From IMG/VR virus record IMGVR_UViG_3300044730_001270, positions 1-34,482 of that record: a stretch of 34,482 nt of DNA; one strand, 5' to 3'. This stretch comes from a virus. The notes under the pieces are model-generated. The model was not told the DNA's origin, searched no databases, and worked only from the letters and a program-made list of their open reading frames with translations. This document shows positions 17,776-31,624 of this stretch, in pieces. Within the stretch, counting starts at the first letter, position 1; the number at the start of each line of letters is the position of its first letter. A program made the position numbers and the translations under genes.

Positions 17776-18996
17776 ATGCCAAGAATTTATAAAACCGGGA
17801 ACACGAATACCGTCTGGGCCAAGCACTGGTTAGCCGATGTTAAAGCGGGTGGGGTTCGTACCGATTACACCTCGACTCAATGCGGCTTTATGATCGCACC
17901 TCCTCCCTCTTTTAAGCGGGTTCGATTTTTGTTTAAAAACATTGAAGCGACCCCGCCCAATGTAAAAATGATTGTAGCCGTAACCAATACTTCGGCGAAC
18001 AAAATAGAACCGTCAGTAGGCAACACTAAAACCAACAATCCCACCACTGGCTGGGTAGACGTGAGGTTTAGCGGCGCTCTAACGGGCGCATTGCCTCCTT
18101 TTATCTCTGGGAATGTCAGGGTTCCGGCTACCATGTGGTCTGACTGGGTTGATCTGCCCTCTATTCCGCCTACTGATGGTGCTTCCACTACCCCATACCT
18201 GATGTGGCGGACTAAATTCGATAACCCATTTACCTTCTGGGCACAGGGTACAACCCGCACCACGATTGCTTACCCTGCAAACTTTTTTGATAATTACTTC
18301 AACTTTGGCAACGACCGCACCGTAAACCCGGAAAACGGAACAGCAGCCAACACCACAACCTATCAGGATTCCACCGGAATCCATGCTATTGAATTTGATA
18401 CCGGTATTGTAGTCCACCGGATACTATGCGTAGGTGACTCGATTACTCAAGGCGTTGGGGATAACACGCAAGGGAACTCAATGGGGTCATGGGTTCCAAA
18501 GGCTGAAACACTGGCCCGTGCTAGTGGTAGTTTATTGAATTTCATGAACTACGGCCAGGGAAGTTGTCCTTCTGATGCTTTTGCCGCTTTCGGTAGACAA
18601 GCCGTAACGGATCACTTGCCCACTGTGGCCATGTACAGCGTTTGGACTCCAAACGACTCGATTCCAGACGCTACCAATACATTGACGGCCTATAACCGTG
18701 CTATGGATTTTGCGGCGCATTGCAGGAGCTATGGAGTACAGCCTGTCTTTGCCTTTCTGGCTCCCAACGATGGCTATATTCTAGCGGCGGATAATTTCCG
18801 TAAAGCCTTGATTACCAAGTGCAAAGCAACCGATATTCCGGTTGTGGATATGACACCAGCCGTAGGGGATGGCGCAAGTCCTGAACGGTTTATTGCAGGC
18901 CGTAAAAATGACAATACCCACCCGAACGCAACGGGTTATCAGGCAATGGCGGAAATCGCTATTTCTCGACTGTCGCAGATATTGGCCATTGCTTGA
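17776..18996 (+). CDS. SGNH/GDSL-type hydrolase tailspike (esterase or deacetylase)
   Basis: 406 residues. The first 200 are a beta-rich N-terminal domain. Then the SGNH blocks follow: ILCVGDSITQG (S222 nucleophile), NYGQGSCPSD (block II Gly), YSVWTPNDS (block III Asn, with WTPND instead of the usual GxND) and DNTHPNATGY (D379 and H382 of block V). All four catalytic positions look intact. Such enzymes on tails remove acetyl groups from O-antigen or capsule. No signal peptide, which fits a virion protein. Confidence 0.8.
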   Translation: MPRIYKTGNTNTVWAKHWLADVKAGGVRTDYTSTQCGFMIAPPPSFKRVRFLFKNIEATPPNVKMIVAVTNTSANKIEPSVGNTKTNNPTTGWVDVRFSGALTGALPPFISGNVRVPATMWSDWVDLPSIPPTDGASTTPYLMWRTKFDNPFTFWAQGTTRTTIAYPANFFDNYFNFGNDRTVNPENGTAANTTTYQDSTGIHAIEFDTGIVVHRILCVGDSITQGVGDNTQGNSMGSWVPKAETLARASGSLLNFMNYGQGSCPSDAFAAFGRQAVTDHLPTVAMYSVWTPNDSIPDATNTLTAYNRAMDFAAHCRSYGVQPVFAFLAPNDGYILAADNFRKALITKCKATDIPVVDMTPAVGDGASPERFIAGRKNDNTHPNATGYQAMAEIAISRLSQILAIA

Positions 18997-19973: not shown

Positions 19974-20004
19974 CCTCCCCCTGCTGAAAAGTGGGGGGCT
20001 TTTT
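19974..20004 (+). terminator. Rho-independent terminator of the late operon
   Basis: CCCCC at 19977-19981 pairs with GGGGG at 19993-19997 across an 11-base loop, followed by a C and five T (20000-20004). It lies 26 bases after the DUF1353 stop. Confidence 0.65.
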
Positions 20005-20012
20005 GCTATAAT
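19984..20012 (+). promoter_or_regulatory. Putative plus-strand promoter of the structured RNA region
   Basis: A perfect TATAAT occurs at 20007-20012. At 17 bases upstream stands CTGAAA (19984-19989), four of six matches to TTGACA. The box lies inside the end of the late terminator, so transcription here would restart after termination. Weak -35, moderate confidence. Confidence 0.4.
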
Positions 20013-20220
20013 AAGCTTACCCTCTCCAGTCGAAGGCTTACGTTTTTACGTGAGGCAGCGCAGCTTTTAGCTGACTAGGCTGGGGGGGGCACAGGCTCTT
20101 GACGGGGGAGCCTGCGTAAGCGAATCCCCTTTCATCATTTCCCCCATTCAGCCTCGCAATTGACCTGCTGAATGGTGCGGCCGGGGTGTCCGTTGGTCAG
20201 AAAAAGCCCCACCATTTCCA
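20013..20220 (+). ncRNA. Candidate structured non-coding RNA, no known family recognised
   Basis: No credible ORF. Perfect stems: CAGC/GCTG (20061-20064 with 20070-20073), CAGGCTC/GAGCCTG (20092-20098 with 20108-20114), GCTTACG/CGTAAGC (20036-20042 with 20115-20121) and CCATTCAGC/GCTGAATGG (20144-20152 with 20167-20175). A second GCTTAC at 20015-20020 could compete for CGTAAGC, giving two alternative folds. It is bracketed by TATAAT and a strong terminator. It might also be part of a long 3' region or a DNA-level site; strand is inferred from the promoter. Confidence 0.45.
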
Positions 20221-20222
20221 AC

Positions 20223-20259
20223 AAAAAAGCCCCGATGCCATCACAGCGCCGGGGCTTTT
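20223..20259. terminator. Bidirectional terminator between converging operons
   Basis: GCCCCG (20229-20234) pairs with CGGGGC (20250-20255), flanked by six A on the left and four T on the right, so it works in both directions. It sits six bases beyond the last stop of the minus-strand early operon and also ends plus-strand transcription. Confidence 0.8.
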
Positions 20260-20264
20260 GGTGT

Positions 20265-20486
20265 TTAACGTTTGATAAATTCTCTGCACTCTTGAAGGAC
20301 TACAGCTAATTCCTTGAATACTTTCTTTTGTTCCTTGTCTGCCTGGTTGCGCCCTGCCACAAAAGCTCTTTCTAGATGGTAATTAACGAAAGCCCCTCCA
20401 TGCAGTGGATCAGCAATAGTAATTCCGACTTGCTGACAATGGGTTTTGAAATTATTTTTAATCTCGTCTAATTCGCTAAGTTCCAC
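20265..20486 (-). CDS. Hypothetical protein, last gene of the early operon
   Basis: 73 residues from a GTG at 20486 that overlaps the previous stop region, with GAGGAGG a few bases upstream. A longer frame to 20606 exists but would run 130 bases into the ClpX-like gene. The protein is helical: [38 protein letters not shown] and [19 protein letters not shown]. No family recognised. Confidence 0.55.
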
Positions 20487-20778
20487 CGCTTGCTTCCTCC
20501 TCTTTTTCTTTCGCAACAAGCTCAACGCAAAGGTCAACGCACTCATTGCAAATGTAGACTTCAGGCCCGGCAATGAGTTTTTTAACCTGATCCTGACTTT
20601 TCCCACAAAATGAGCAGCTTAGTTTTTCCTTCTCTTTTTGCCATTCTTTATGGGCCACATTGAAGGCGTTTTGCATAATATGTAATTCGCAAAGCGCAAA
20701 GCCTGAATTGTTATTCCACCATTCCGCTTTACGATGGCAGTTCTCTTTTATGCATTTAGGGTTTGTCTTATCGCTCAC
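20476..20778 (-). CDS. Free-standing ClpX zinc-binding domain protein
   Basis: 100 residues from GTG 20778 (overlap GTGA with the previous stop; GGAGG upstream). The C-terminal 45 residues match the zf-C4 N-terminal domain of Clp[21 protein letters not shown] then [15 protein letters not shown], with CxxC...CxxC. In ClpX this domain dimerises and receives adaptors and substrates. The first 55 residues hold another Cys/His set ([25 protein letters not shown]) and a helix. There is no AAA+ module, so it cannot be an unfoldase; it might bind the host ClpX domain or its adaptors, or simply have reused the fold. Inference. Confidence 0.75.
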
Positions 20779-21011
20779 TTGCTGTCCTCCATCAAAAACC
20801 AATACGCATACTTTTCCTTCACCTCCACCGGCTTCTGCCACTTCTGCCAGTTGAGGCAAGAGGAGCAGGTGCTTTGCTCCCTGCCCACTAAAAAGCCCCT
20901 GCCGGTGCATTCAGGGGCTTGTTTAGCGGTACAGAGAAAGAAGTCAGTGTCGAGGCGTTTGAGGGCTTTTTCCTCCATCGCTTTATTTGCCTGGGTGACG
21001 GCTTTACTCAC
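20775..21011 (-). CDS. Small cysteine-containing hypothetical protein
   Basis: 78 residues, GTG start overlapping the previous stop (GTGA) and ending with the same overlap to the ClpX-like gene. Four cysteines ([20 protein letters not shown]) could bind one zinc ion. Charged N-terminus. No family recognised. Tight coupling suggests it works together with, or is co-regulated with, the ClpX-like protein. Confidence 0.6.
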
Positions 21012-30763: not shown

Positions 30764-31624
30764 TTAAACAGTTGCTTTTGAAGTAAACGCTTCAAACGCT
30801 TCCAGCCACTCCAGCGCAAGTTTGCTAAACTGGCTGGTTTCAGGAGTGTCGCCTTCTTTAATTGACAGGAAAAACCTCTCAATCGGGCGGTTATTGTCGG
30901 CGTATCCTAACTGGATATGAGTCACGCCCCTTGTCTTCGCAACCGTTCCAGCTAAACAGGCACACTCACCTGAGTAGGTTGAGCCGTCGATCCGGCCTTC
31001 TTTGATAGCAGCTTTGAGCGCTGGAATCTCAGGAATTGACTGAAGTAGCACGACCCACATATCATTTTTAATAGGCTCTAGGTCAGCGCCACTCAGGTCA
31101 GCGCCACTCAGGTTAGCGCCACTCAGGTCAGCGTCTCTCAGGTCAGCGTCTCTCAGGTTAGCGCCACTCAGGTCAGCGTCTCTCAGGTCAGCGTCTCTCA
31201 GGTCAGCGTCTCTCAGGTTAGCGCCACTCAGGTCAGCGTCTCTCAGGTCAGCGTCTCTCAGGTTAGCGCCACTCAGGTCAGCGTCTCTCAGGTCAGCGTC
31301 TCTCAGGTCAGCGTCTCTCAGGTCAGCGTCTCTCAGGTTAGCGCCACTCAGGTCAGCGTCTCTCAGGTCAGCGTCTCTCAGGTCAGCGTCTCTCAGGTAA
31401 GCGCCACTCAGGTTAGCGTCTCTCAGGTCAGCGCCACTCAGGTCAGCGTCTCTCAGGTAAGCGCCACTCAGGTTAGCGCCACTCAGGTCAGCGTCTCTCA
31501 GGTCAGCGTCTCTCAGGTTAGCGCCACTCAGGTCAGCGTCTCTCAGGTTAGCGTTTACAAGCGTTTCGGCATCAACAACCTTGATAACCTCGCCGCTCCA
31601 ACGATGTTTAATCTCTATAGTCAT
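30764..31624 (-). CDS. Pentapeptide-repeat protein
   Basis: 286 residues. N-terminal 27 residues ([20 protein letters not shown]) lead into 31 consecutive five-residue units of [20 protein letters not shown] or LRDAN, predicted to fold as a right-handed quadrilateral beta-helix with an acidic surface. The C-terminal 105 residues ([54 protein letters not shown]) are a conserved cap domain common in phage pentapeptide proteins. Acidic helices of this fold can mimic DNA (Qnr, MfpA); gyrase or nuclease binding is inference. Repeat number likely varies between strains. Confidence 0.85.
31082..31546. repeat. 31-unit 15-bp tandem repeat coding pentapeptides
   Basis: Plus-strand units alternate mainly between GTCAGCGTCTCTCAG and TTAGCGCCACTCAG-type forms. 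Units of the same kind are identical at the DNA level, including third codon positions, pointing to recent expansion or gene conversion. Confidence 0.95.

Follow-up and report, generated by a model that had tools for sequence, protein, structure and literature searches.

A divergent DUF3800-VIII RNA between the late and early operons of a myophage genome fragment

The intergenic region and its carrier phage

The window, i.e., the whole stretch of viral DNA that was analyzed (34,482 nt), is a fragment of a myophage genome, as seen from its DUF3383, KPP10 Orf10, Dit-like, E217 gp41 and baseplate J proteins. Relatives of the baseplate J proteins share about 40% identity and are mostly found in phages of Proteobacteria. 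For the last late gene no relatives were found, and for an earlier late gene (17776-18996) a single relative with 70% identity. The record of that relative does not contain the RNA described below, and neither do the records of the nearest phage relatives found for the window, most of which are fragments. The RNA is located after the last late gene, between the late and the early operons. The leftward operon just past it encodes a protein that has a ClpX-type C4 zinc finger at its C-terminus (20476-20910, minus strand) and, near the operon start, a pentapeptide-repeat protein of 286 amino acids (30764-31624, minus strand).

An earlier note on this DNA had singled out positions 20007-20259 as a gene-free stretch with a TATAAT box, four perfect stems and a strong terminator. 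No open reading frame of more than 45 amino acids was found in this stretch. The TATAAT hexamer (20007-20012) is preceded by a TG, and a -35-like CTGAAA is located 17 nt away. The stems are real, but not all of them are perfect, as P1 and P2 contain G-U pairs. The terminator hairpin is also present (Table 1); it is flanked on either side by runs of A and of T and can thus terminate both converging operons. Weak Rfam matches over the terminator (asX2, rimP and others) were rejected as chance-level, and a tRNA or tmRNA was rejected because ARAGORN finds no such gene in the window.

Table 1. Features in and next to the intergenic region (positions in the window)
Feature	Position	Strand	Evidence or remark
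Hairpin resembling an intrinsic terminator, at the end of the upstream late operon	19977-20003	+	Shares positions with the -35-like hexamer of the promoter for the RNA
Putative sigma70-type promoter, CTGAAA, 17 nt, extended TG-n-TATAAT	19984-20012	+	Predicted start near A20019, adjacent to P1
P1, 5' strand	20020-20031	+	12 consecutive pairs with 20078-20089; covariation
Unpaired GAA between P1 and P2, invariant in the family	20032-20034	+	Alignment
P2 hairpin, CTTACGT-TTTT-ACGTGAG	20037-20054	+	Pair probabilities of 0.95 or more; covariation
P3, extra hairpin, CAGCT-TTT-AGCTG, 5 pairs	20061-20073	+	Insertion relative to the Rfam consensus
Invariant UAG (G paired), followed by the 3' strand of P1 with the conserved G run at its end	20076-20089	+	Alignment
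Second hairpin, CAGGCTC...GAGCCTG	20092-20114	+	Predicted fold; outside the RF03075 match, not a family part
CGTAAGC, supposed switching segment	20115-20121	+	Not conserved in relatives
Strong bidirectional terminator where the two operons converge	20224-20259		Fold and sequence

Match to RF03075 and conserved structure

In a permissive Rfam scan, positions 20016-20093 (plus strand) match the whole model of RF03075 (DUF3800-VIII RNA; model positions 1-64) with 39.1 bits. The curated gathering threshold of this family is 40.2 bits. The copy is 1.1 bits short of it, which is why the default Rfam scan of the window gave no match. The E-value of the match is 7.4e-6 in a search of 361 bases, 7e-4 for the whole window against 4227 Rfam families, and 1.7e-7 for the 34,482-nt record against RF03075 alone. 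The shortfall in score coincides with an insertion of 12-13 nt, which folds into P3. The gathering threshold is a curation convention, and the copy is therefore filed as a divergent homolog and not as an annotated member. A DNA search of phage records with the region returned nothing significant. The DUF3800 RNA motifs were reportedly first described by Weinberg and colleagues in 2017.

A degenerate pattern of the conserved bases of the family retrieved 18 stretches from bacterial genomes and 15 from viral contigs, all of which are DUF3800-VIII RNAs above the Rfam threshold. The pattern was built to fit the window too, and the letters fixed in it do not count as independent support; members found with the Rfam model were therefore added. 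Genomes were sampled in three phyla outside Pseudomonadota. With the Rfam model, and with the center genome of each sample counted, RF03075 members were found in 2 of 198 genomes of the Geobacter phylum, 12 of 398 of the Bacillus phylum and 7 of 296 of the Mucilaginibacter phylum.

An independent covariance model was made from 27 relatives, with the window left out. It again picks positions 20016-20093, with 30.2 bits and an E-value of 7e-6; the next match has an E-value of 1.1. Throughout 58 sources (378 kb), only family members reach an E-value of 10 or better with this model, and among them the window copy ranks lowest in score. Despite the sub-threshold Rfam score, the E-values obtained with RF03075 alone and with the independent model favor homology, and on these sequence comparisons the segment is almost certainly a DUF3800-VIII homolog. 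The earlier note had proposed a possibly undescribed phage RNA; the region belongs, below threshold, to a known family, of which the record of phage Goe14 already contains an annotated copy. Its view of a structured phage RNA between converging operons has gained strong support from homology and covariation.

Compensatory changes in relatives, which the earlier note had proposed to look for, are frequent. Changes on both sides occur at 20 of the 25 base pairs in an alignment of 49 members, and 89.9% of the cells pair. The covariation score of this alignment is 0.58, as compared to 0.26 in shuffled versions and at most 0.17 in slid ones; controls of this kind make related sequences look more significant than they are, but relatedness is preserved in the slid versions, which fall far below 0.58. 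The window copy forms 21 of the 25 aligned consensus pairs, with both P1 and P2 present, and keeps all ten invariant columns of the 49 rows, i.e., the GAA between the stems, a U in P2, the UAG and the G run. It thus shares with RF03075 the full length of the match, both stems and the invariant bases, and differs in its score, in the insertion, in the missing U-tract after P1 and in the missing DUF3800 gene.

The 253 nt from 20007 to 20259 fold at -99.5 kcal/mol (z = -3.1 against shuffles). The signal is concentrated in 20019-20093 (z = -4.3; none of 200 shuffles was as stable). The other 166 nt have a z of -2.3, to which the terminator contributes much, and the value of -2.2 for the reverse strand is expected from the nearby bidirectional terminator. 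In the predicted ensembles, P2 and most of P3 form with a probability near 1. P3 does not belong to the conserved stems of the family, but extra hairpins at its position are possible in two further members, one from Geobacter (L015) and one from the Mucilaginibacter phylum (L053), as read by eye from the alignment. L053 and two other members from the Mucilaginibacter phylum samples (L055 and L056; 1501-1574 for all three) have in common a junction segment that is longer by about 8 nt; these three might represent a subfamily with an extended third arm, as in the window.

With the lowest score of all members, a lost U-tract and no partner gene, the copy might be taken for a decaying, functionless relic that has survived by chance between genes, and in which P1 is only part of a terminator. 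This is unlikely, given that P1 retains its 12 consecutive pairs, P2 is intact and all invariant bases are kept at an identity of about 65% to the nearest member; the near-consensus promoter was kept as well.

Transcription and the proposed switch

The putative promoter matches the consensus at 10 of 12 positions and has a near-consensus extended -10 element; when the upstream segment is shuffled, none of 100 versions scores as high. It ends 3 nt ahead of the RF03075 match. With the extended -10 element directly upstream of the copy, the transcript would begin at the foot of P1. Promoter-like scores upstream of the family members are modestly raised (p of 0.05 or less in 11 of the 49, with about 2.5 expected), the window being among the best. 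Right after P1, T runs are strongly enriched in the members (7.2 per 12 nt, 3.7 expected), so that in most of them P1 could by itself terminate the RNA. The window copy has only 3 T in these 12 nt and no U-tract; its transcript would probably extend to 20259, with a length of about 240 nt. Judged from the promoter match, the RNA is likely to be transcribed on its own.

These features also bear on a reading at the DNA level, in which the folded single strand would be recognized by an RNase H-like DUF3800 protein, in the way a transposase recognizes the ends of its element. RNase H-like folds do occur in transposases, and the element is scattered sporadically across phyla. The promoters ahead of several members and the U-tract after P1 in most of them point to an RNA, however, as do the G-U pairs kept in one strand sense (alignment columns 8/73 and 21/43). 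Element ends or target duplications were not seen in a search that was not systematic. A DNA site is accordingly very improbable.

The earlier note had further suggested a switch, or a regulated RNA, based on alternative pairing. The segment CGTAAGC does have two possible partners, at 20036-20042 and at about 20015-20020. A cis-acting switch would move this segment between the 5' strand of P2 and the leader and thereby control termination downstream, and both the 7-base complementarities and a strong downstream terminator exist. Yet a downstream partner of at least 7 bases for the 5' strand of P2 is found in the window copy only (1 of 49 members), and the alternative pairing has a predicted probability of 0.0, as compared to 0.95 or more for P2. 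Most of the leader partner, AGCTTAC (20014-20020), precedes the predicted start near 20019. Moreover, the next downstream gene is on the opposite strand, which leaves a switch no target in cis. The switch is thus already largely refuted, and we give it hardly any weight. A riboswitch or other cis-regulatory class was rejected, as there are neither conserved, mutually exclusive pairings nor a downstream gene on the same strand.

DUF3800 neighbors, other phage copies and possible function

A DUF3800 reading frame is located near 21 of the 49 members, nearly always in convergent (tail-to-tail) orientation; in most of these 21 flanks the gene ends about 45-80 nt from the 3' end of the RNA. Neither a DUF3800 gene nor a hidden remnant was found in the window, which is a fragment, or in the flanks of its RNA. 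The remaining 28 members also lack such a neighbor, and the gene is thus not required for membership. DUF3800 is present in 3 of 15 viral records and in 19 of 35 cellular genomes (Fisher p 0.03), a comparison that includes one viral record absent from the 49-row alignment (L033). The sample contains prophages and short-flanked fragments, and its sequences are related to one another, which makes the p-value optimistic. The difference suggests that phage copies are mostly orphans and that cellular copies are often placed beside DUF3800.

Orphan copies recur at packaging or late-gene boundaries in several phages (L022, L016, L025, L026 and L066). The copy in L022 adjoins small-terminase genes, upstream of the small terminase; in L025 it is located between the large terminase and the portal, and in L026 its neighbors are a sigma-like regulator on one side and an HNH gene on the other. 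In SPbeta phages, the orphan RNA is located upstream of yonK. The SPbeta-group copies (Goe14, 50900-50965, which carries the DUF3800-VIII annotation; SPBc2, 59409-59474) resemble the window copy in being phage-borne orphans in an intergenic gap, but are placed where the late region begins, whereas the window copy follows the last late gene.

Other structured RNAs were observed near several of the phage copies. Goe14 has a second annotated ncRNA, 'skipping-rope' (L065:2691-2800), in the same gap, directly 3' of an HU gene which is itself next after yonO; it does not reach the threshold in SPBc2. RAGATH-5 RNAs are located a few kb from the DUF3800-VIII RNA in phage regions of the Oscillibacter type (L016:6763-7839; L022:6370-6422), and L016 contains a type II hammerhead ribozyme within a few kb as well.

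We consider it quite probable that the locus encodes an orphan, divergent DUF3800-VIII RNA of a tailed myophage, with its own promoter, a P1-P2 core plus P3, and probably an action in trans. Transcription would run rightward from the sigma70-type promoter and begin at the base of P1. In the folded RNA, with its P1-P2 core and the added P3, the junction would expose the invariant GAA and UA as unpaired bases. Most likely, the RNA would act in trans in a complex with protein. The natural candidate partner of the cellular copies is the DUF3800 protein encoded tail-to-tail beside the RNA; that of the phage copy would be supplied by the host or be another phage protein. Whether the window RNA acts in trans together with a protein at all is, in our view, evenly balanced. 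Other RNAs that are encoded beside the gene of an RNase H-fold protein, such as those associated with IscB/HEARO and IS605, offer an analogy only: the RNA is a different one, and DUF3800-VIII is convergent, small and has no recognized guide segment.

A phage orphan could alternatively be a decoy, mimicking the RNA component of a DUF3800 ribonucleoprotein in the host and titrating or blocking that complex, which would fit the lower frequency of DUF3800 beside phage copies (p 0.03, as above). However, orphan copies are numerous in cellular genomes too, fragments and prophages blur the phage and cellular groups while related members make that p-value optimistic, and we know of no role in defense for DUF3800-VIII loci. 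The DUF3800 protein has an RNase H-like, nuclease-like fold (PMC10910872), and a precedent for a decoy exists in the Racrs, RNA anti-CRISPRs that mimic CRISPR repeats (PMC10651486). Like those solitary repeat units, the window RNA is a lone phage copy of an RNA that is elsewhere found beside a nuclease-like gene, but it has no sequence relation to them, and the comparison is an analogy only. We regard a decoy as improbable, and use of the phage orphan with a host protein or another phage protein as more likely. As decoys or hijackers, orphan phage RNAs in general, with the window copy among them, might inhibit or redirect a nuclease-like DUF3800 ribonucleoprotein of the host, in which case DUF3800 loci would be an uncharacterized RNA-based conflict system; this, too, is improbable.

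Members with an extra hairpin can be overlooked by a default Rfam scan. The window copy adds a divergent orphan phage member to the DUF3800-VIII RNA class, in which the DUF3800 gene is mostly missing beside phage copies and often located tail-to-tail beside cellular ones. As copies also occur in SPbeta, the class could be tested in the standard laboratory strain Bacillus subtilis 168.
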